DNA of 64,000 bases, from the NCBI RefSeq assembly GCF_000021805.1, contig NC_011726.1, positions 1,116,001 to 1,180,000 of the forward strand, read 5' to 3'. Shown here piece by piece: positions 6,926-55,292 of this stretch (its first letter is position 1; each line of letters begins with the position of its first letter). The notes beneath the pieces were generated by a model. That model saw nothing but the letters and a program-made list of their open reading frames with translations. It did no database searches and was not told the DNA's origin. The stretch is from Rippkaea orientalis PCC 8801 (GTDB lineage Bacteria > Cyanobacteriota > Cyanobacteriia > Cyanobacteriales > Microcystaceae). A program made the translations under genes and the position numbers.

Positions 6926-7729
6926 ATGGCTGAGTTTAGCAGTGTATTCGAGCACATTAAAAACGTCTTAAGTGAAGACGATATAAATTCTCTAAAACAA
7001 ATTTGTAAGAAGCACTTTAGTCAAGAGCAAGCTATTCCGAGCTACGTCTTACTTGATTATCTGGATATTCCTGTATTCAAAAAGATTAAACTACTTCTTG
7101 AAGAGAAAATCAATGCAAAGCTCTATTACCTCAACGATTTTTATATCTACACAGACAATACATTTAGTGCCAGTTGGCACATGGACACCGAGTTGTTCAC
7201 GTTTGAACGAGCCATAAATGTTTGGATTTTATTATCACCTGATTCTGTTACCGATCCCTTATGCTTTATGGCTGATATTAATGATAAGCCTGAACGCTAT
7301 TACCATAGTCTAAAAATTGACTCTGATAACTGTATGTTCGTCAATTTTACCAATCTCGATAGTACTGAATGTTCATTAGCTACAATTGAACAAGAGCGGA
7401 TTCATACACCAACAATTCAAGTGGGGGATATTCTAACCATTAACCCCAAGAGATTCCATAAGACAAACACCTCAGAAGCTAAACACTCTCTTGTTATTAA
7501 GTTTGTCTATGAGGGTTCTAACGGATTGCTTTCGGACTCGCCGATGCCATCAGAGTTTTGGCCAGAGGTTGGGATTTTTACTAATCTCGTCAACCAATCT
7601 ACTGATTGGAACCAAGTACTCAGTGGACTTCGAGAGGAGTTAAAAACACCCGAAAGTCGTAAGGCATTGAGCGCAGGTTTCTATCCTGAGAAAATCGATC
7701 TTTACCAGCGCATGGCACAGACTTTATAG
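6926..7729 (+). CDS. Unknown protein, possible 2OG-Fe(II) oxygenase fold
   Basis: A 267-residue soluble protein that I do not recognise as a named family. It has an H-x-D pair in SASWHMDTE (H85, D87), a distal histidine in NPKRFHKTN (H178) and a basic residue 14 positions on (K192 in SLVIKF). This order and spacing is what Fe(II)/2-oxoglutarate-dependent oxygenases of the phytanoyl-CoA dioxygenase/JmjC-like type show. The N-terminal 70 residues look helical and the C-terminal 60 (WPEVGIF...LREELKTPESRKAL) may be a lid or partner-binding part. The start has GAGG upstream of the ATG. A hairpin at 7811-7841 follows. Function is inference from the motif only; a plain cupin is the alternative. Confidence 0.55.
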   Translation: MAEFSSVFEHIKNVLSEDDINSLKQICKKHFSQEQAIPSYVLLDYLDIPVFKKIKLLLEEKINAKLYYLNDFYIYTDNTFSASWHMDTELFTFERAINVWILLSPDSVTDPLCFMADINDKPERYYHSLKIDSDNCMFVNFTNLDSTECSLATIEQERIHTPTIQVGDILTINPKRFHKTNTSEAKHSLVIKFVYEGSNGLLSDSPMPSEFWPEVGIFTNLVNQSTDWNQVLSGLREELKTPESRKALSAGFYPEKIDLYQRMAQTL

Positions 7730-7940: not shown

Positions 7941-8684
7941 ATGAATAACCAAATAACTCCTTGTTCTTCTCTCACAAAAACCGTGAGTAATCTTGGTATG
8001 GGCTGCTTAACAACGGTCACTATACTAATGGGAATGACTGGAAAAACTCACGCCTCTGTGATTAATTTTGATGCGGATCAATATCGATTTTCTAACCCCA
8101 ATACCTGTACTCCACAACTCGCACCCGATAATAAATGTTTTGTCGAAGATGGAGTGAATGTAGAGGCATTTTCCGCCCGACAAACGGGAGGTGATCCAGG
8201 GCATTTTCATGAAGGAGGGCATTTTCACGCGAGTAATTCCTACGAAGCACAACATTATACGGCCGGGGATAATCTATTAGGTGTTAAGCTAACTTTAGCC
8301 AATGGGGGTTCATTTGATTTAGTTAGTTTAGATTATCAACTCAGAAATATTGCCAGTGGTATAATTAATGGGTTTACGGCTGATGATATCAAAATTTTGA
8401 TTACAACAAACTTTAATCCAACAGAACCAGTTCTTGGCCAGTTTGTAGAATATTCTATTGGCAATGATATCACTCAACCTTTCCAGACTTTATCACTGAC
8501 GACTTTTGAAAATATGACTCAAGTTTACATTGCTAGTTCAGCCGGGGTTAATTTTGATAATATTACCCTTGCGCCTATTCCTGAACCGAGTTTACTGTTA
8601 GGGTTATTAACCTTGGGAAGTTTTGGTGTAATTTCTAAGTCTAAAAGACAACAAATTAGCAAAAGAGCGAATATCAATCGCTAA
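7941..8684 (+). CDS. PEP-CTERM exported protein with His-rich segment
   Basis: A 247-residue exported protein of unknown function. It has an N-terminal signal peptide (hydrophobic stretch at about 17-38 ending near THASV), a mature domain that looks all-beta, and a C-terminal sorting signal: IPEPSLLLGLLTLGSFGVI followed by a basic tail, which is the PEP-CTERM pattern processed by exosortase. Residues about 85-100 contain GHFHEGGHFH, a possible metal site. The C-terminal domain (DYQLRN...GFTADDIKILIT...FENMTQVYI) resembles the generic beta domains common in this class. It lies at the head of a PEP-CTERM-rich island. A degenerate copy of a short palindrome follows at 8691. Confidence 0.75.
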   Translation: MNNQITPCSSLTKTVSNLGMGCLTTVTILMGMTGKTHASVINFDADQYRFSNPNTCTPQLAPDNKCFVEDGVNVEAFSARQTGGDPGHFHEGGHFHASNSYEAQHYTAGDNLLGVKLTLANGGSFDLVSLDYQLRNIASGIINGFTADDIKILITTNFNPTEPVLGQFVEYSIGNDITQPFQTLSLTTFENMTQVYIASSAGVNFDNITLAPIPEPSLLLGLLTLGSFGVISKSKRQQISKRANINR

Positions 8685-8690
8685 TTGCGC

Positions 8691-8707
8691 GGTGGGCATT
8701 GCCTACT
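8691..8707. repeat. Degenerate GGTGGGCATTGCCCACC palindrome
   Basis: GGTGGGCATTGCCTACT, two mismatches from the perfect palindrome at 11102-11118. It lies just after a PEP-CTERM gene, as two other copies do. Confidence 0.55.
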
Positions 8708-8817
8708 GGATTGTTTCATCTAAAATAGTTAAATAGCTCTAGGTTCGTAGTGAGGGCTACATTCTTAAGCAAGATTTTAGCTGAAACAGTCCACTACGGT
8801 TTTTATTTATTATTGAG

Positions 8818-9419
8818 TCACTTTAATTCAAAATCAGGGGTGATTTCATTAGCAACCACCGCCACTCGTTCTCTGACATTCATCGGGAGTGGAATATAAC
8901 CTAAATTGGGGGACTGTTTTTGTCCTTCATTGAGGGCAAATTGAACCATGGCTTCCATGGCGATCGCTTTATTAGGATCATCATATTTTTTATACAATAA
9001 TATCCAGGTATAAGTCACAATAGGATAGGATTCATCGCCAGGGTTAGACTCAGCAATTTTAGGATCATTCCAGTTAGTAATGTTGCCTAAAAAAATATCA
9101 ACGTAATTGTCTCGCGTTAATTTGAGATTGTCTACTCCAGGCACATTATAGGCTAACACAATACTTCCAGCAGTTGGGGGATTTCTCTGGCTAAAAGGAT
9201 AAACCAGTTTTGATACAAAGGTGCAGGAAAAGACGCACCAGCCCCATTCGCACCAATATTTTGTTGAAAGGGCAAGGTGATGGCTACTGTACTTTGGGAT
9301 TGGCCATTGGGAGATTGAGACTGTTGATTTCCACCACAATCAGTTAGAATCGCCGTTATTCCTAGAATGGATAAGCAACTAACAAGATGTTTCGGCGATG
9401 AACAAATATGACTGATCAT
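8818..9419 (-). pseudogene. Broken pstS (phosphate ABC transporter binding protein)
   Basis: Two overlapping frames together spell parts of a PstS lipoprotein. The N-terminal frame (from ATG 9419) has a signal with lipobox-like cysteine (LTDC, C28) and GANGAGASFPAPLYQNWF. The second frame resumes with PPTAGSIVLAYNVPGVDNLK and DIFLGNITNWNDPKIAESNPG, then jumps to SYPIVTYTWILLYKKYDDP and the normal C-terminus LGYIPLPMNV...TPDFELK. Against the usual PstS order, two internal pieces are gone: the first phosphate-binding part after NWF, lost with a frameshift near 9180-9195, and the second lobe between SNPG and SYPIV. With both ligand-binding parts absent it cannot bind phosphate. It sits beside a set of exported phosphoesterase-like genes. 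Confidence 0.85.
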
Positions 9420-9727
9420 ACTGGAATACTTACTCGTCTAATTTCTCTCCTAAAGTTTAGTATAAAAATTTTAATTGAGATTGATCAATCAACAAAAAAA
9501 ATATAATCTTCACTCAATAATCTCTTGATAACTTTTTCTTAAACTAAACATAATATAAATAGTTTTCTAAAAGCAATTATCGTCAGTATTGCCATACTAT
9601 AGTAATCAGTAATCATTGATATTGCCCGTTCTCTCTGTGAACTGTATAATTTATTTTGTGTGATACTTATTGTACAATTGTTGATGTTATCAGCAGTTGT
9701 TTCTTTGCTTCTGCTCATTGTTGATAT
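9420..9727. other. Intergenic region, no gene seen
   Basis: About 300 AT-rich bases between the divergently read pstS remnant and the GDPD gene. The first part holds the former pstS promoter and a good ribosome binding site (AGGAGA on the minus strand). A 65-codon minus-strand frame at 9539-9736 has no recognisable content and I do not call it. Confidence 0.5.
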
Positions 9728-9757
9728 TTTAACCATGTCTTAAAATTAATGTAACCT
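9728..9757 (+). promoter_or_regulatory. Pho-box-like triple repeat before the GDPD gene
   Basis: Three 8-bp units with exact 3-bp spacers: TTTAACCA, CTTAAAAT and TGTAACCT. Against the cyanobacterial Pho-box unit PyTTAAPyPy(T/A) they match 8, 6 and 7 of 8 positions. The array ends 63 bases before ATG 9821. This is the arrangement bound by SphR/PhoB-type regulators under phosphate starvation. The genome is AT-rich, so chance is possible; the downstream gene function supports the call. Confidence 0.55.
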
Positions 9758-9820
9758 ACAGATAAAAAATCTCCTCTAGGATTAATTTCTGAAATTGTTT
9801 TTAGAAAATTGATAATCTTT

Positions 9821-11080
9821 ATGAATTTTTTAGCTTCTTCTGTTCAAAATTGTGGTTTCCTTATATTAGGAACGGCCTTTTTATCTTTGATGCCAACGAA
9901 TCCATTATTAGCTTCATCCCTTAATACGTTAAATGGTCAGACTCCTATTGTCATCGGACATCGAGGCGCAAGTGGCTATCTTCCTGAACATACCTTAGAA
10001 GCTTATGAGTTAGCAATTGAAATGGGGGCTGATTTTATTGAACCCGATCTTGTTTCCACACTTGATGGCGTTTTAATTGCTCGTCACGAAGTCAATATTA
10101 CGGATACAACCAACGTCGCTGATTTCCCCGAATTTGCCGATCGCTTCACCACAAAAGTCATTGATGGCGTAACAGAAACTGGGTGGTTTGCCGATGATTT
10201 TACCTTAGCTGAAATTAAGCAACTGGGGGCAGTACAACGAGTTCCTTTTCGGGATCAATCCTATAATGGGTTGTTTGAAATTCCCACCCTTGAAGAAATT
10301 ATTAATTTAGTCAAACAAGTCGAAGCGGATACAGGCCAACAAATTGGGATTTATCCTGAAACCAAACACCCTACCTATCATGATTCTGTGGGGTTATCCT
10401 TAGAAGAAACCCTCGTTCAAACCTTAGTTAATAATGACTTTACCGATCCTGATCGCGTTTTTATTCAGTCCTTTGAAGTGGGTAACTTACAGGAACTTAA
10501 TACGCTAATTGATGTGCCATTAGTACAACTTTTAGATGCACAAGGTATTGCCTTAGATGGCACGTTAATTGAAACCCAACCCTACGATTTTGTAGTAAGT
10601 GGAGATCCTCGAACTTATGGAGATTTACGAACCCCTACGGGACTAGATGAAATCGCTACCTACGCTGACGGAATTGGTCCTTGGAAACGGATGATTGTCT
10701 CGGTTCAAGGAGTAGATAATAACGGAGATGGACAAGCAGATGATGTTAATGGTGATGGGTTAGTCAATGATGCTGATAGAACTTTGCTTCCTCCAACTTC
10801 CTTGGTTAATGATGCTCATGCGGCCGGTTTATTAGTCCATCCCTATACTTTTCGTGATGAAGATCTTTACTTAGCAGCAGACTATAATGGCGACCCTAAA
10901 TTGGAGTACGAACAGTTCTTTAATCTAGGGGTTGATGGTTTGTTTACTGATTTTCCTGATACGGGAGTTGCTGGTCGTAATCAATTTTTGGCTTCTGTTC
11001 CTGAACCGAATACCATCGCTGGTTTATCGTTATTGGGACTGTCTGCTTTAGCAAAAAAACGTCGTCAATCTCAAGATTAA
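9821..11080 (+). CDS. Exported glycerophosphodiester phosphodiesterase, PEP-CTERM
   Basis: Hydrolyses glycerophosphodiesters to glycerol-3-phosphate and an alcohol. ATG 9821 is preferred over an upstream TTG; 419 residues. Signal peptide at about 1-32. The GDPD domain shows [20 protein letters not shown] (H47, R48, E56), the metal pair FIEPDL (E74, D76), the second histidine ARHE (H89), YPETKHP, and the C-terminal FTDFPDTG. An insert at about residues 300-325 has two DxNGDG-type loops ([16 protein letters not shown]), which look like calcium-binding loops. The C-terminus [20 protein letters not shown] plus a basic tail is a PEP-CTERM signal, so it is probably held at the cell surface. The Pho-box-like array lies before it; the next gene follows in 86 bases. 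Confidence 0.92.
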
Positions 11081-11101
11081 TTAATTGAGTTTTATCTAGT
11101 T

Positions 11102-11118
11102 GGTGGGCATTGCCCACC
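11102..11118. repeat. Perfect GGTGGGCATTGCCCACC palindrome
   Basis: Two 8-bp arms with a single central base, 21 bases after the GDPD stop. This short palindrome occurs again in the window after two other PEP-CTERM genes and in many cyanobacterial genomes. It could form a hairpin in the transcript. Confidence 0.7.
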
Positions 11119-11165
11119 CTACCCTCTTATTCGTTATGATGTACAATATTAGAAGATAAAAACCC

Positions 11166-12539
11166 ATGAAAAGTAACAATAGTTTACTCTTTTCTTGCCT
11201 TAGTTTAACTATATCAGTAACCCTTACTTTATTATCTTCTATGGCACAAGCTGCCTCTACATTTCGGATTGCTACCTACAATACATCCTTGAGTCCGAAT
11301 GCTCAAAATGCGTTAATTCAAGCTTTATTGATCGCCCCTAATGACCCTGAATATAATACCGATCCTTTGGCAATTCAAGCTCGTCAAATCGCGGAAGTTA
11401 TTCAACGCATTGATCCCGATATTATTCTCCTTAACGAGTTTAATTACGATCCTAATAATCCAACTTTAGCTGCTGAGTTATTTCAACAAAATTATCTTTC
11501 AGTCGGTCAAAATATTTCTGGAAATTCTGCCGCTAATCCGATTAATTTTGCCGAATTTTTTGTGAGTCCTATTTCAACAACCGATCCCTTTAATACGGGG
11601 ATTGCTTCAGGATTTGATTTAGATAATAATGGTTTAATTGTCACCACACCAGGAACCCCAGGTTATGCCGGAGATGCGTGGGGATTTGGCAATTATCCGG
11701 GTCAATATGGGATGGTGATTTATTCTAAGTATTCTATTCTCGAAGAAGAAGCGCGTACCTTCCAAAATTTCTTGTGGTTAGATATGCCAGCAAATTTATT
11801 AACAGATATTACAGGTAATGACCCCGATGACTGGTATACCGATGAGGAAGCCGCTTTATTTCCCCTTTCTTCTAAGAGTCATTGGGACATTCCTATTGAG
11901 GTTAATGGTGAAATTATTCACGTTTTAGCCAGCCATCCTACTCCCCCAGTTTTTGATGGAACAGAAGACCGCAATGGACGAAGAAACTATGATGAAATTC
12001 GTCTTTGGAATGACTATATTACCCCGAGCCAAAGTAATTATATTTATGATGATAATGGGGTATTTGGAGGGCTTGAACCTGGAGCAAAATTTGTTATAAT
12101 GGGTGATCAAAATGCTGATCCTAATGATGGGGATAGTGTACCCGGTGCAATCAATCAACTATTAGATAATCCTCTAGTCAATACCAGTCAAACACCTTCT
12201 AGCTTGGGAGCAGTGGAAGCAGCTATTAGCCAAGCAGGAGTGAATAATAATCATACAGGAGATCCTGCTTATGATACGGCTGATTTTGGAGATTTGCCGC
12301 CCTTTGGAGCAGGAAATCTAAGGGTTGATTATGTCCTTCCTTCTAGTAATTTAGGGATTATAGATGGTGAAGTTTTCTGGCCAACTAATAACAACTCTTT
12401 GTCTTCTTTAAATACGGCTTCTGATCATCATGCCGTGGTTTTGAATGTAACTACTTCTGTCCCTGAACCCGCGACAGGTTTAGGCATTTTTAGTCTAGGA
12501 ATTTTAGGTTTATTTAGTAAAAGAAAACAGAAATCCTAG
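11166..12539 (+). CDS. Exported endonuclease/exonuclease/phosphatase family protein, PEP-CTERM
   Basis: A 457-residue secreted member of the EEP (DNase I-like) superfamily, which hydrolyses phosphodiesters or phosphomonoesters. Signal peptide at about 1-30 (LLSSMAQAAS). Domain motifs in order: RIATYNTSL, the metal glutamate in DPDIILLNEFNYD, GQYGMVIYSK, the HVLASHPTPP histidine, VIMGDQNADPNDGDS, and the terminal SDHHAVVLNV. These are the canonical EEP active-site elements. The end SVPEPATGLGIFSLGILGLFSKR is a PEP-CTERM sorting signal. It lies 86 bases after the GDPD gene on the same strand and may share its promoter. Extracellular DNA or other phosphate esters are plausible substrates; the exact one cannot be read from the sequence. 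Confidence 0.9.
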   Translation: MKSNNSLLFSCLSLTISVTLTLLSSMAQAASTFRIATYNTSLSPNAQNALIQALLIAPNDPEYNTDPLAIQARQIAEVIQRIDPDIILLNEFNYDPNNPTLAAELFQQNYLSVGQNISGNSAANPINFAEFFVSPISTTDPFNTGIASGFDLDNNGLIVTTPGTPGYAGDAWGFGNYPGQYGMVIYSKYSILEEEARTFQNFLWLDMPANLLTDITGNDPDDWYTDEEAALFPLSSKSHWDIPIEVNGEIIHVLASHPTPPVFDGTEDRNGRRNYDEIRLWNDYITPSQSNYIYDDNGVFGGLEPGAKFVIMGDQNADPNDGDSVPGAINQLLDNPLVNTSQTPSSLGAVEAAISQAGVNNNHTGDPAYDTADFGDLPPFGAGNLRVDYVLPSSNLGIIDGEVFWPTNNNSLSSLNTASDHHAVVLNVTTSVPEPATGLGIFSLGILGLFSKRKQKS

Positions 12540-12684
12540 ATAAAATATGTCAAGCATTATATTTGATTAGATAAAAGGCTAGGTGATCACTACCCCCAAC
12601 AACTATCTGATTAAACTATTAGTCCTTTGATGGGAAATTTCCGCCCACAATATTAACCTAATTATTTAACATTTTGGGAGTTTT

Positions 12685-14190
12685 ATGGAAACTGCAAAAC
12701 GCTTCTTTTCTGCATTAATTAGTACCTTGACGTTATCGGTTTTAACAGATCAAACGGCTCACGCTGTTTCCTTTGTTAATAACATTGTTATTTCGTCTGA
12801 TCAAACCGATTTAAGTGGTGAACCCGATGGACTAAATGGTAATCGCTTAGCTGGAATTTTTTCTGATCTTTATTATGATCGTAGCAATAATGTTTATTAT
12901 GGTTTAAGCGATGCTGGTCCCGGTGGTGGAACTGTTTCTTTTAACACCAAAGTTCAAAAATTCACCCTAGATGTTAATCCTAATACTGGGGAAATTAGCA
13001 ATTTTAATTTACTCGATACGATTCTATTTACTGACAATGGTCAAAACTTGAATGGATCAGATCCTAGCTTCCTCAATGGAGATAGTTCAGTTCTGGGATT
13101 AAGTTTTGATCCCGAAGGGTTTGTCGTGGCTCCTAATGGTCATTTTTACGTCTCAGATGAATATGGACCCTCTGTCTATGAATTTTTGCCAGATGGGTCA
13201 TTTTTACGCGCTTTAACGACTCCTGATAACCTGATTCCTAAAAACAATACTACCCCCAATTATGTTGATGGACGTGGTACGATTACCACAGGTCGTCAGG
13301 ATGGTCGTGGATTTGAAGGATTAGCAATTAGTCCTGATGGGACACAATTATTTGCGATGTTACAAGCTCCTTTAGTTAACGAAGGAAACGCTAATGATGG
13401 ACGACTTAGTGCTAATTTAAGAATTGTTGAATTTGATACCACCACAGGAACCAGTACCGCTCAATATATTTATCAGTTAGAAAGTTTGATTGATATTAAT
13501 AATCGTATCCCTGGAACCAGCAATGATTTTCCAGCAACCAGTCAAGGAAGAAACATTGGAATTAGTGCCATTACTGCGATTAATGAGGCAGAATTTTTGG
13601 TAATAGAAAGGGATAATCGAGGGTTTGGGGTTGCTGCACCAACGACTACTGATATTGCTGATAATCCTGTGGGAACTAAGCGAGTTTATCACATTGATAT
13701 CACTGGAGCAACGGATGTTAGTGGTCTTAGTTTAGCAGGAACAAGTACGTTACCAGGTGGGGTAATTCCTGTAACAAAATCGCTGTTTCTCGATCTCCAA
13801 AGTGAATTAGAAACGGCCGGACAATTGGTCACAGAAAAACTAGAAGGATTAGCCATTGGACCCCAATTAAATGATGGAAGTTACGCTCTTTTAGTGGGAA
13901 CAGATAATGATTTTAGTGCGACTCAAGATAGTAATGATGTTCAATTTGATGTCTGTACTAATGCGTTGACAACTAATCCTCTTGCTGAATCTCAACAAGT
14001 TCCGATTAATACTCCGTGTCCTCTCGATTCCCAAAACAATCCCATGAGTTTAATTCCCACCTATCTCTATTCTTTCAAAGCAGATGTTCCTAATTTTGTC
14101 CCCTTACAAACTGTTCCAGAACCCAGTGTAATCCTCGGAATAATTAGCTTAGGGTTAGGTGGGTTGCTTCTTAAAAAAACTAATACTTAA
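12685..14190 (+). CDS. Phytase-like esterase domain protein, PEP-CTERM
   Basis: A 501-residue exported protein with the 'esterase-like activity of phytase' domain, a beta-propeller-like fold. Signal peptide at about 1-28. Domain signatures: LAGIFSDLYYDRSNNVYYGLSDAGP, SFDPEGFVVAPNGHFYVSDEYGP, GFEGLAISPDGTQLFAMLQ, EFLVIERDNRGFG, and EGLAIGPQLNDGSYALLVGTDNDFS. The conserved acidic residues in DPEG, SDEYGP and RGFEG probably bind calcium and phosphate. The C-terminus QTVPEPSVILGIISLGLGGLL plus KKT is a PEP-CTERM signal. ATTAACCT and TTTAACAT lie 20-30 bases before the ATG and resemble single Pho-box units, but with 5-bp spacing. Substrate is unproven. Confidence 0.88.
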   Translation: METAKRFFSALISTLTLSVLTDQTAHAVSFVNNIVISSDQTDLSGEPDGLNGNRLAGIFSDLYYDRSNNVYYGLSDAGPGGGTVSFNTKVQKFTLDVNPNTGEISNFNLLDTILFTDNGQNLNGSDPSFLNGDSSVLGLSFDPEGFVVAPNGHFYVSDEYGPSVYEFLPDGSFLRALTTPDNLIPKNNTTPNYVDGRGTITTGRQDGRGFEGLAISPDGTQLFAMLQAPLVNEGNANDGRLSANLRIVEFDTTTGTSTAQYIYQLESLIDINNRIPGTSNDFPATSQGRNIGISAITAINEAEFLVIERDNRGFGVAAPTTTDIADNPVGTKRVYHIDITGATDVSGLSLAGTSTLPGGVIPVTKSLFLDLQSELETAGQLVTEKLEGLAIGPQLNDGSYALLVGTDNDFSATQDSNDVQFDVCTNALTTNPLAESQQVPINTPCPLDSQNNPMSLIPTYLYSFKADVPNFVPLQTVPEPSVILGIISLGLGGLLLKKTNT

Positions 14191-14344
14191 TTAATCACTG
14201 ATTAAGTAAATAGTAATTAAGAAACTAAGTTAAGCGGGTTTTTTCAAAATACTTGTAATAATTGAAGTGATGAGAAAAATCTGCTTTTACCAATTCTTGC
14301 AACTCATTTTGTGTGACTACTTACTAATAACTATTGACTTCATT

Positions 14345-15577
14345 ATGCAAAAATTAAACTTTAATTCTTTGTTGAATATTGGACTATTAAGCGGTGTCAT
14401 TCTTGGACTCGTTAATCTCCAACCAATTCAAGCATCTTCTTTGCAATTAAATTTTATTGGTCAATCGATTATTCCAACGGGAACCCCTTTTGCCGGAACA
14501 ATTATTGGAGGTCTATCAGGAATTGACTATGATCCTATTTCAGATATTTATTATGTCAATTCTGATGATCGCAGTTCTGCTGCACGATTTTATACAGTAA
14601 CATTAGATTTAACTCAATTTAATGATACAGGAATTAACACTGGTGTCACCTTTACGGATGTTACTACCCTATTGCAACCTAACGGTCAACCATTCGTTGC
14701 CAATAGTCTTGATCCCGAAGACATTGTGTTAGTTAATGGCAATGTTTATATCCCCTCAGAAGGAGAAGTTTCTGCCACTCGAATTGTTGACCCATTTGTC
14801 AATCGCTTTGATGTTAGTACAGGCCAACAAAATCAAGCTTTGCCAATTCCTGATCAATTTCTTCCCGCACCGAATACCATCCCAACAACCAGTGGTGTCC
14901 GTAATAATTTAGCCTTAGAAAGTTTAACCGTTACTCCTGATTTAAACTATCTATTTACCGCTACTGAAAATGCCTTAGTACAAGATGGACTCGAAGCAAC
15001 CCTGAGTAATGGTAGTTCCGTGCGGATTTTGCAGTATGATCTAACCACGGGAGATGCGATCGCCCAATTTATCTATCATACTGACCCCGTAGCCCTTCCC
15101 CCTAACCCTCCAGGTCAATTCAATACCAATGGATTAGTGGATTTATTAGCCTTAGATAATAGTGGGGAGCGATTTTTAGCCTTAGAACGGTCTTTTTCTG
15201 TGGGTGCAGTGGGAACACCCGGAAATACAGGTAATACGCTCAAACTGTATGAGGTTTCTCTAGCAGATGCGACCGATATTAGTGGATTATCTTCGATTAG
15301 TGGACAGTCTAACCTGATTCCTGCTCAAAAAACCCTGCTTTTGGATTTAACCGACTTGGGTATTCCCATTGATAACATCGAGGGATTAACCTTTGGCGAA
15401 ACGCTGCCTAACGGTAATCGTTCTTTGGTGTTAGTGAGTGATAATAATTTTAATCCGCTTCAATTTACCCAATTCTTAGCTTTTGAAGTGGAATCTGTCT
15501 CTGTCCCTGAACCATCCTCTGTTTTAGGATTGGGTTTCTTAGGACTCTTAGGTCTGTGGCGACGTAATAAATCTTAA
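14345..15577 (+). CDS. Second phytase-like esterase domain protein, PEP-CTERM
   Basis: A 410-residue paralogue-like neighbour of the preceding gene. ATG 14345 (MQKLNFNSLLNIGLLSG) gives a proper signal peptide ending near LQPIQASS; longer in-frame starts at 14267/14270 would put 26 extra residues in front. Domain signatures: GGLSGIDYDPISDIYYVNSDDRS, SLDPEDIVLVNGNVYIPSEG, LALESLTVTPDLNYLFTATENAL, RFLALERSFS, and IEGLTFGETLPNGNRSLVLVSDNNF. The C-terminus SVPEPSSVLGLGFLGLLGLW plus RRNKS is a PEP-CTERM signal. It is 154 bases after the first phytase-like gene on the same strand, completing a run of four exported phosphoesterase-like genes. Confidence 0.88.
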   Translation: MQKLNFNSLLNIGLLSGVILGLVNLQPIQASSLQLNFIGQSIIPTGTPFAGTIIGGLSGIDYDPISDIYYVNSDDRSSAARFYTVTLDLTQFNDTGINTGVTFTDVTTLLQPNGQPFVANSLDPEDIVLVNGNVYIPSEGEVSATRIVDPFVNRFDVSTGQQNQALPIPDQFLPAPNTIPTTSGVRNNLALESLTVTPDLNYLFTATENALVQDGLEATLSNGSSVRILQYDLTTGDAIAQFIYHTDPVALPPNPPGQFNTNGLVDLLALDNSGERFLALERSFSVGAVGTPGNTGNTLKLYEVSLADATDISGLSSISGQSNLIPAQKTLLLDLTDLGIPIDNIEGLTFGETLPNGNRSLVLVSDNNFNPLQFTQFLAFEVESVSVPEPSSVLGLGFLGLLGLWRRNKS

Positions 15578-53760: not shown

Positions 53761-53856
53761 AGCCCTAAAAACGAGATGAATCTGAATATCCCACGACGTG
53801 CCCTTTTACCTTAAAGCAAATTCTTGATGAAGATTGGTATCCTATAATAACATAAG

Positions 53857-53875
53857 CTTAATCCACTTTTAATTT
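53857..53875 (+). promoter_or_regulatory. Pho-box-like repeats before the second phytase-like locus
   Basis: CTTAATCC, a 3-base spacer, then TTTAATTT: 7 of 8 and 8 of 8 matches to PyTTAAPyPy(T/A), 43 bases before the ATG at 53919. A weaker unit AATAACAT lies three bases upstream in phase. The match to the array at 9728-9757, also before an exported phosphoesterase-like gene, supports it. Confidence 0.5.
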
Positions 53876-53918: not shown

Positions 53919-55292
53919 ATGTTAAAACTCAAACAATTATCTGGGATGTTAGGGATGATAGGGGCTATTACCATTCCATTAAACGCCCTAGCTAGTGAAT
54001 TAGTAGGACGGGCAGTCTTACCAGCCAATACCTTTGCCCCTGGCCCAACCTCAGGACAATTTATTACCCCTTCCAATGGGTTTACCCCTCCTTTTAGTGA
54101 TCAAGAACCCGTCCAAGGATTTTCGGCCATTTTACCCGGTCCGACTGCCAATACCTATCGAGTCATGGAAGATAATGGGTTTGGCAGTAAAGCTAATTCT
54201 GCTGACTCGGTGTTGCGTTTTTATACCATTGAAATTGACTTTAACACAGGAGAAGTTTTTCCAGCAGATTGGGAAACCGGAGCAAGACTTTCGAGCTTTA
54301 ATAGTGATAGTTATTTGCAACTTAATGATCGGGATAATCAAGCCGGATTTACCATTGTCGCTGATTTAACAAATTATCCTAATTCGGCTATTCCTGTTGA
54401 TCCCAACATTGTCAATAATCGGTGGTTAACGGGAGCCGATTTTGATATAGAATCCTTTCGTCAAGCCCCTGATGGGACATTTTGGGTAGGCGATGAATTT
54501 GGACCATTTCTCTTACATTTTGGCAGTGAAGGTCAGTTATTAGAAGCCCCCATTGAGATCCCTAATGTCCTAGGATTTGATAGCAATCCTTTGGTACAAT
54601 CCCCGGATAATCCTAATGTAACAACAGCCAATTTAGGGCGTTCTAGAGGATTTGAAGGAATGGCTATTAATCAGAGTGGAACTAAGCTTTATCCCTTGTT
54701 GGAAGGGTCTTTAACCTCCGATCCCGAACGCGATCGCCTATTAATTTATGAGTACGATTTATTGACCTCTGACTTTACGGGAAATGTCTTTTATTATCGT
54801 CTAGAAAACCCCACAGAAAGCGGACAAGCGATCGGAGACTTAACGGCTATTAGTGACACGGAATTTTTAGTCATTGAACGAGACGGAAAACAAGGCGATC
54901 CCAACAATCCATTATTTTCTGATCCAGCCGAATTTAAGCGAATTTATAAAATTGATATTACTCAGGTTGATCAAGAGGGATTTGTTGAAAAAGAATTGTT
55001 AGTGGATTTGTTAGCTATTTCCGATCCTAACAATCTTGGAGGTAATGGGACAACCAATGGAACATTTACCTTTCCTTTTGTCACTATTGAGGCTGTTTTA
55101 CCTATTGATAAAAATACCTTATTAGTGACCAATGATAATAACTTTCCCTTTAGTGTTGGGCGAACTCCAGGACAAGCTGATAACAACGAATTTATCTTAG
55201 TTTCGATCCCTTCTATCCCTGAGTCAAATTCATCGATTGGGTTGCTATTGTTAGGGGGTTTAGGATTAATTTTGATGATTAAAAAGTCTTAA
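53919..55292 (+). CDS. Phytase-like esterase domain protein with PEP-CTERM-like tail
   Basis: 457 residues. Signal peptide at about 1-26 (ITIPLNALAS). The 'esterase-like activity of phytase' domain is marked by PVQGFSAILPGPTANTYRVMEDNGFG, FDIESFRQAPDGTFWVGDEFGPFLLHF, RGFEGMAINQSGTKLYPLLEG, EFLVIERDGKQGD and TLLVTNDNNFPF. The C-terminus SIPESNSSIGLLLLGGLGLIL plus KKS has the shape of a PEP-CTERM signal but with PES in place of PEP. It is the third protein of this kind in the window, far from the other two, and has its own Pho-box-like site. Confidence 0.87.
   Translation: MLKLKQLSGMLGMIGAITIPLNALASELVGRAVLPANTFAPGPTSGQFITPSNGFTPPFSDQEPVQGFSAILPGPTANTYRVMEDNGFGSKANSADSVLRFYTIEIDFNTGEVFPADWETGARLSSFNSDSYLQLNDRDNQAGFTIVADLTNYPNSAIPVDPNIVNNRWLTGADFDIESFRQAPDGTFWVGDEFGPFLLHFGSEGQLLEAPIEIPNVLGFDSNPLVQSPDNPNVTTANLGRSRGFEGMAINQSGTKLYPLLEGSLTSDPERDRLLIYEYDLLTSDFTGNVFYYRLENPTESGQAIGDLTAISDTEFLVIERDGKQGDPNNPLFSDPAEFKRIYKIDITQVDQEGFVEKELLVDLLAISDPNNLGGNGTTNGTFTFPFVTIEAVLPIDKNTLLVTNDNNFPFSVGRTPGQADNNEFILVSIPSIPESNSSIGLLLLGGLGLILMIKKS

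Follow-up and report, generated by a model that had tools for sequence, protein, structure and literature searches.

Exported PEP-CTERM phosphoesterase-like genes and Pho-box-like arrays in Rippkaea orientalis PCC 8801: a candidate set for phosphate scavenging

The DNA considered here, called the window, is a stretch of 64,000 nucleotides from the unicellular cyanobacterium Rippkaea orientalis PCC 8801 (contig NC_011726.1, positions 1,116,001 to 1,180,000; G000:C3:1116001-1180000 in a genome of 4.79 Mb and four contigs), and positions are counted from its first letter. Within 7.6 kb of its plus strand (7941-15577) lie five genes for proteins with PEP-CTERM sorting tails, and a broken pstS gene sits on the minus strand after the first of them. 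This first gene (7941-8684) encodes a protein of 247 amino acids without an enzyme domain. It is followed by genes for a GlpQ-like glycerophosphodiester phosphodiesterase (GDPD; 9821-11080, alternative TTG start at 9809; PF03009, E 8.5e-47), an EEP-fold nuclease/phosphatase (11166-12539; PF03372, Exo_endo_phos, E 3.5e-29) and two proteins named phytase-like in Pfam, phytase-like 1 (12685-14190; PF13449, E 3.7e-66) and phytase-like 2 (14345-15577, alternative GTG start at 14267; PF13449, E 2.2e-86). Pfam enzyme-family domains were found in four of the five genes, and this is the run that a preceding sequence-only reading of the region had described.

The tail model of NCBIfam, TIGR02595 (cut-off 16 bits), is passed by all five proteins, with 21.5 bits for the first and 22.9, 21.4, 17.3 and 22.7 bits for the others; the Pfam PEP-CTERM model reaches its own cut-off in only two of the five tails, and the match of the first protein to NF038120 (33.1 bits) is below the cut-off of 80. 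The N-termini of all five look Sec-type in an inspection of the translations by eye. Throughout the genome 34 tails exceed the TIGR02595 cut-off, five of them inside 7 kb at this cluster, and when tails were placed at random along the chromosome 20,000 times, five never fell within 7 kb, the maximum being four, in 14 placements. Since the two phytase-like genes are distant paralogues, the five clustered tails are not wholly independent. The sequence-only reading had hinged on an exosortase elsewhere in the genome, and two are encoded, each with the gene of its associated protein adjacent: cyanoexosortase B scores 479.2 bits against a cut-off of 300, and cyanoexosortase A 309.7 bits against one of 150. 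A PhoA-type alkaline phosphatase of the same genome (L175:9289-11178) also has a PEP-CTERM tail and adjoins another PEP-CTERM gene.

The GDPD protein has the catalytic domain of the periplasmic GlpQ type, whose structures 1ydy and 1t8q are its closest solved sequences, and its HRG motif and a second histidine, which we take to be active-site residues, are aligned with 1ydy. It differs from this type in its C-terminal PEP-CTERM tail and in its score with the NCBIfam GlpQ equivalog NF008354 (205.2 bits, under the cut-off of 254). A search of the EEP protein against the sequences of the PDB gave no match. In sum, the family context is strong, and so is the sorting signal for the four enzyme genes.

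The promoter region of the GDPD gene was studied with a matrix for which 25 of the 30 sites (rows) in Table 1 of Su et al. 2007 supplied their three boxes, the window being scored on both strands (127,942 positions). The best of all these positions (rank 1, 16.7 bits) is a three-box Pho-box-like array on the plus strand at 9728-9757, separated by 63 bp from the GDPD start codon (ATG). It reads TTTAACCA-tgt-CTTAAAAT-taa-TGTAACCT, with three mismatches to three copies of YTTAAYYW, so the triple 8-bp repeat with 3-bp spacers is present as had been claimed. The reversed matrix reaches this score at none of the window positions. When the 401 bp before the gene were shuffled 2,000 times, it was reached 8 times on the same strand and 9 times on either strand, and in a separate run 3 of 1000 shuffles of the GDPD upstream region equalled it. 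A second plus-strand array, at 9516-9556, has four 8-bp boxes with 3-bp spacers, and its overlapping three-box readings (16.5 and 16.2 bits) take ranks 2 and 4 in the window; the site of rank 3 (41960) falls within an open reading frame. Rank 5 belongs to a plus-strand array at 53846-53875 (14.8 bits, equalled in 5 of 1000 shuffles), located 43 bp before a sixth gene (53919-55292, plus strand), 38 kb from the cluster, which encodes a further exported phytase-like protein of 457 amino acids (PF13449, E 3.5e-58). Its tail (IPES..) is a borderline PEP-CTERM signal, with 18.1 bits for TIGR02595 in the genome scan and no NCBIfam match at E 0.001 in the protein scan. Both the second array and the sixth gene with its own site were absent from the sequence-only reading.

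At its own composition the 400-bp region upstream of the GDPD gene, with a guanine-plus-cytosine content of 26%, would be expected to contain 0.005 sites of 16.2 bits or more, and it contains two arrays; therefore the array at 9728-9757, which is not significant alone in the genome, is notable for its location. Elsewhere in the genome, a gene for a 775-residue PhoA-type protein has an upstream site of 16.5 bits (2 of 1000 shuffles). Only one pstS of the genome exceeds the cut-off of its family, and it lies, together with a divergent gene for a second binding protein, at L174:8720-9895 and 10201-11256. The strongest Pho-box-like array met in the genome (L177:9232-9294, or G000:C3:4181232-4181294; 22.7 bits, several boxes in register) directly precedes a gene for a 280-residue protein that looks like an alpha/beta hydrolase by eye; ranks across the ten genome stretches are biased, four of them (L177, L178, L182 and L183) having been picked for Pho-like matches.

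Further evidence was obtained from homologues of at least 40% identity in 100 stretches (80 named, 20 unnamed). The region upstream of each was scored against 200 shuffles, and regions of fewer than 90 bases, genes cut at the ends of stretches and control proteins of 150 residues or fewer were left out of the counts. The 109 homologues comprise 22 with PEP-CTERM tails, 82 untailed ones of at least 700 residues and 5 shorter untailed ones. With near copies removed, a site with a shuffle p<=0.01 was found upstream of 6 of the 20 homologues that are PEP-tailed (Fisher p 7e-4) and of 26 of the 74 that are untailed, most of them fused (p 5e-12). The controls gave 25 of 481 genes, a baseline of 5% rather than 1%, and may include other phosphate genes. 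The same threshold is reached by 11 of 13 pstS genes. Taken together, the promoter data are good evidence, but the single site by itself is weak: the Pho-box fit proposed earlier gains from the first rank in the window, the second array and the enrichment in homologues, and the score of the single site is unremarkable genome-wide.

In several relatives, genes like these four adjoin one another, PhoA or a pst-like operon. Among 59 genomes, matches at E<=0.001 were found for phytase-like 2 in 52, phytase-like 1 in 48, GDPD in 37 and EEP in 10, many of the first three being distant, and the ten best matches of phytase-like 2 are all single genes with PEP-CTERM tails. In G014, genes for EEP, alkaline phosphatase (PF00245; PhoA), phytase-like 1 and phytase-like 2 are consecutive and all PEP-tailed, and the row is preceded by the gene of another PEP-tailed protein, whose GDPD_2 match is below threshold. 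In G008, PhoA, GDPD and phytase-like 2 follow one another, again all PEP-tailed, and the score of the site before PhoA is equalled in 2 of 1000 shuffles. In G048 the genes for phytase-like 2 and EEP lie side by side in divergent orientation. In G026 phytase-like 2, with its own 21-bit site, comes after a pst-like operon, of which the binding protein and the last ATPase are confirmed by Pfam and the three genes between are assigned by order and size only.

In our opinion, the four enzyme genes form an SphR-controlled, phosphate-starvation-inducible and exosortase-sorted set for scavenging organic phosphate, a reading to which we give a probability of roughly 70%; DNA binding, induction, co-transcription, cleavage, location and substrates are all predicted from sequence. 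Under phosphate scarcity, SphS-SphR would bind the array at 9516-9556, that at 9728-9757 or both, and the bound arrays would promote transcription of GDPD, EEP, phytase-like 1 and phytase-like 2 in one row. The proteins would exit via the Sec route, with the PEP-CTERM helix keeping them in the inner membrane until cyanoexosortase B or A cut their tails; their final place would be within the envelope, on it or outside the cell. The GDPD may free glycerol-3-phosphate from phospholipid head groups, EEP may attack phosphoesters such as nucleic acid and the PF13449 proteins phosphomonoesters, and PhoA enzymes encoded elsewhere in the genome together with the intact Pst transporter at another locus would complete the recovery of phosphate.

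Each part of this proposal has known counterparts. As in the SphS-SphR regulon (Su et al. 2007, PMC1906773), represented by sphX-pst, pst2 and phoA-nucH of Synechocystis, three or more 8-bp boxes with 3-bp spacers stand upstream of phosphate-use genes in the window. The targets of that regulon include a phosphatase and an extracellular nuclease, whereas the effectors in the window are exosortase-tailed, and the terms "glycerophosphoryl" and "phytase" are absent from the main text of PMC1906773. RegPrecise holds PHO boxes for Cyanothece (PMC7546424), so the GDPD promoter may already be in that collection. In Nodularia spumigena, GDPD and phytase-like domains also occur, in genes strongly induced by phosphorus limitation: nsp6490, with two GlpQ domains and a phytase domain (PMC3610870), changed by log2 +4.6/+5.5, and nsp7010, of an esterase-like phytase family, by log2 +5.5/+3.8 (PMC9846622). 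Unlike these, the domains in the window are on separate proteins with sorting tails. The GDPD Tery_2777 of Trichodesmium was increased both in the transcriptome and in the proteome (PMC6411698).

With regard to sorting, ZepA of Anabaena, a Sec-exported PEP-CTERM exoprotein for zinc uptake whose abundance rises when zinc is deficient or zur is mutated (PMC10957091), resembles the proteins of the window as a scavenging protein that rises when a nutrient is scarce, but is a single zinc-handling protein and no enzyme set, and the string "phosphat" does not occur in the main text of that paper. The exosortase system of Nostoc punctiforme has the same kind of tail and the same cyanoexosortase B family as the genome studied here, and there it serves motility, biofilm formation and scytonemin (PMC12188702); "phosphat", "phosphodiesterase" and "phytase" are not met in the main text of that article. 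A single paper, on Desulfovibrio, was found to mention both PEP-CTERM and the Pho regulon, and there PEP-CTERM genes were tied to a regulator other than PhoB (PMC3333781). No link between PEP-CTERM and phosphate in cyanobacteria was found in a literature that covered few subscription papers and no preprints; thus, each part is already known, and the combination of exosortase tails with phosphate scavenging was not found in print. Tails on four recognisable enzyme-family domains, joined to a predicted inducing signal, would offer a simple assay of what exosortase sorting achieves, and, if the proposal is true, the example of ZepA for zinc (PMC10957091) would suggest nutrient scavenging as a general use of the exosortase route.

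A number of observations weigh against the proposal. About 19 sites with the score of 9728-9757 are expected per chromosome by chance under a first-order Markov model. An IUPAC search of the genome with up to three mismatches gave 77 sites, nine of them with fewer mismatches than 9728-9757, as against 58 for the reversed pattern, and a stricter first pattern gave 14 matches as against 20 for its control, which means that matching by pattern does not by itself support the proposal. No site of their own was found in the shuffle-tested upstream regions of EEP, phytase-like 1 and phytase-like 2, and Pho control of these genes therefore needs a putative read-through from the GDPD promoter across gaps of 85-154 bp. 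Among the genome's own phosphate genes, weak sites stand before the intact pstS (11.3 bits, equalled in 68 of 1000 shuffles) and before the PhoA with a PEP-CTERM tail (12.1 bits, 51 of 1000); PhoD had none in this test. The best match to the PhoB model is a response regulator encoded beside a histidine kinase, a candidate SphR that speaks for the proposal, but its 241.6 bits are under the cut-off of 296.2. At p<=0.01 no site precedes 14 of the 20 homologues with PEP-CTERM tails; several of them stand behind another gene of the set, but the lone phytase-like genes of G012 and G027 do not. The exact four-gene order was found in none of the 14 other genomes mapped, and the same-genus genomes G002 and G005, of ordinary size, lack a PEP-tailed phytase-like 2. 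The Nodularia and Trichodesmium genes were likened to the proteins of the window by family only.

Two further points of the same kind concern the limits of the set. The gene at 7941-8684, without a known enzyme domain, has no Pho site (best upstream score 4.6, equalled in 257 of 1000 shuffles), which makes its membership doubtful, and it is probably outside the phosphate set. The broken pstS that the sequence-only reading had recognised (8818-9419, minus strand; TIGR00975, 107.5 bits, below the cut-off of 205) is a remnant with its pieces in different frames and its middle not found: positions 74-123 and 247-314 of the PstS profile are matched and the interval between is not. Its upstream piece (9153-9419), in a different frame, may be the pstS N-terminus, judged by its position, a start that to the eye resembles that of a lipoprotein, and a match of E 0.082, which is weak. 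Because the arrays face the GDPD gene, this remnant lends the proposal no functional support, and the idea that they are the promoter of the broken pstS was ruled out, the best minus-strand score towards it being 5.7. The earlier picture, a surface-attached set through which exosortase sorting would be tied to the Pho response, is the best available and is retained in part: the exosortases, the enrichment of sites before homologues and the PhoA and pst-like neighbours favour it, while the first gene and the significance of the single array do not, and "surface-attached" is not borne out since exosortase products may be either anchored or released (PMC12188702).

The role of the PF13449 proteins may be questioned first, as they could be propeller-shaped proteins for binding or scaffolding, with catalysis limited to GDPD and EEP, a possibility that we regard as rather unlikely. 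No match of phytase-like 1 or 2 to the true phytase family PF02333 was listed at E 1. Phytase-like 2 had no match in a PDB sequence search at E 1, and phytase-like 1 had weak ones only, two of them with NHL-type propellers. The structural model of phytase-like 2 (mean predicted local distance difference test score, pLDDT, 76.4) is almost all beta, and the 50 structural matches listed for it are mostly propellers of the WD40 type, with a template modelling (TM) score of 0.32-0.40 by the query; as only generic propellers were matched, its activity rests on family naming and context. For catalysis speak ten residues, mostly acidic, that are invariant in eight PF13449 proteins of different kinds (D74, D123, E125, E139, E192, D232, E281, R282, D334 and D366), as well as the joining of this domain to GDPD, EEP, PhoD or true phytase domains in all five fusion proteins scanned. 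Moreover, nsp7010, whose family name comes from PMC9846622, was termed an atypical alkaline phosphatase and cited with an enzyme of Synechococcus 7942 in PMC3610870.

A second explanation, to which we assign a low probability, accepts exported PEP-CTERM phosphoesterases and denies their Pho control: the set would be constitutive or otherwise regulated, acting at the surface on biofilm matrix, extracellular DNA or lipid turnover, and the arrays would be chance matches in AT-rich DNA. The low upstream GC content, the chance expectation per chromosome, both IUPAC comparisons and the three enzyme genes of four without a site are in line with it, and so are the functions of cyanoexosortase B in N. 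punctiforme (PMC12188702). Chance does not easily explain two arrays in one 400-bp region for which 0.005 sites are expected, or the enrichment upstream of homologues, and the PhoA and pst-like neighbours in relatives, together with the starvation-induced genes of the same families (PMC9846622, PMC6411698), also argue for Pho control. Finally, it is very improbable that the PEP-CTERM genes were gathered by chance, as a rearrangement remnant around a decayed pst locus without common function, as the broken pstS in mid-cluster, the non-conserved gene order and the lack of any link of 7941-8684 to phosphate might suggest, given that tail clustering exceeds that of 20,000 random placements, similar groupings occur in G014, G008 and G048, and the same domains are fused in other cyanobacteria.

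These fusions are common among the relatives of the GDPD. The named loci are the 80 best of 420, and the shares below apply to that list only. Among their 80 GDPD-type open reading frames at >=55% identity, 73 have at least 700 residues, two are PEP-CTERM-tailed and five are neither, some of the last reaching a contig end. At least 21 of the long frames also carry a phytase-like 2 domain and at least 11 an EEP domain, judged by match start; the 80 stretches as a whole have matches of EEP in 28, phytase-like 2 in 34 and pstS in 16. A frame of 3,806 amino acids in Calothrix elsteri combines EEP, phytase-like (four stretches), phytase, PhoD, DUF11, two GDPD, Calx-beta and DUF4114 domains, and EEP is the first domain in two of the fusion proteins scanned. 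In G010, a protein like PhoX, one with two GDPD domains and a third with phytase-like, phytase and choice-of-anchor domains, RTX repeats and DUF4114 are encoded side by side.

It may be supposed, with about even chances, that these forms represent one Pho-controlled extracellular toolkit of phosphoesterases (EEP, phytase-like, GDPD, PhoA/PhoD) with two interchangeable ways of delivery, as separate exosortase-sorted PEP-CTERM proteins in relatives of the strain or as long multi-enzyme fusions, some ending in RTX or DUF4114, in Nostocales and others, and that lineages switched between them more than once. A quick tree of phytase-like 2 needs three changes of the fused label (two forced by starred branches) and three of the PEP label (one forced), and a single clade of all PEP-tailed GDPDs is not rejected (approximately unbiased test, p-AU 0.131). 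The idea that the form follows the presence of an exosortase was only partly borne out in the 30 genomes from which the best phytase-like 2 match was retrieved. A full-length PEP-tailed phytase-like 2 is present in 10 of these genomes, all with a TIGR02602 match (nine over the cut-off). In seven genomes the best match lies in a frame of more than 1,000 residues, and six of these also match TIGR02602 (four over the cut-off), G018 having no match. If true, the contrast between split and fused forms would mean that one nutrient toolkit has been handed to different export routes.

Two minor observations may be added. Four same-genus genomes, G001 (L129), G003, G004 and G006 (L130), each a single contig, are reduced to 2.5-3.1 Mb, and GDPD, EEP and phytase-like 1 were not matched in them; G001 and G006 retain phytase-like traces with ten and five stops, respectively, and G001 and G003 exosortase traces with stops. 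These genomes presumably resemble the diatom endosymbiont type, in which surface scavenging may be useless. In the window itself, a 267-residue protein (6926-7729) without a Pfam match over the cut-off has an HxD...H pattern that by eye resembles that of iron/2-oxoglutarate oxygenases.

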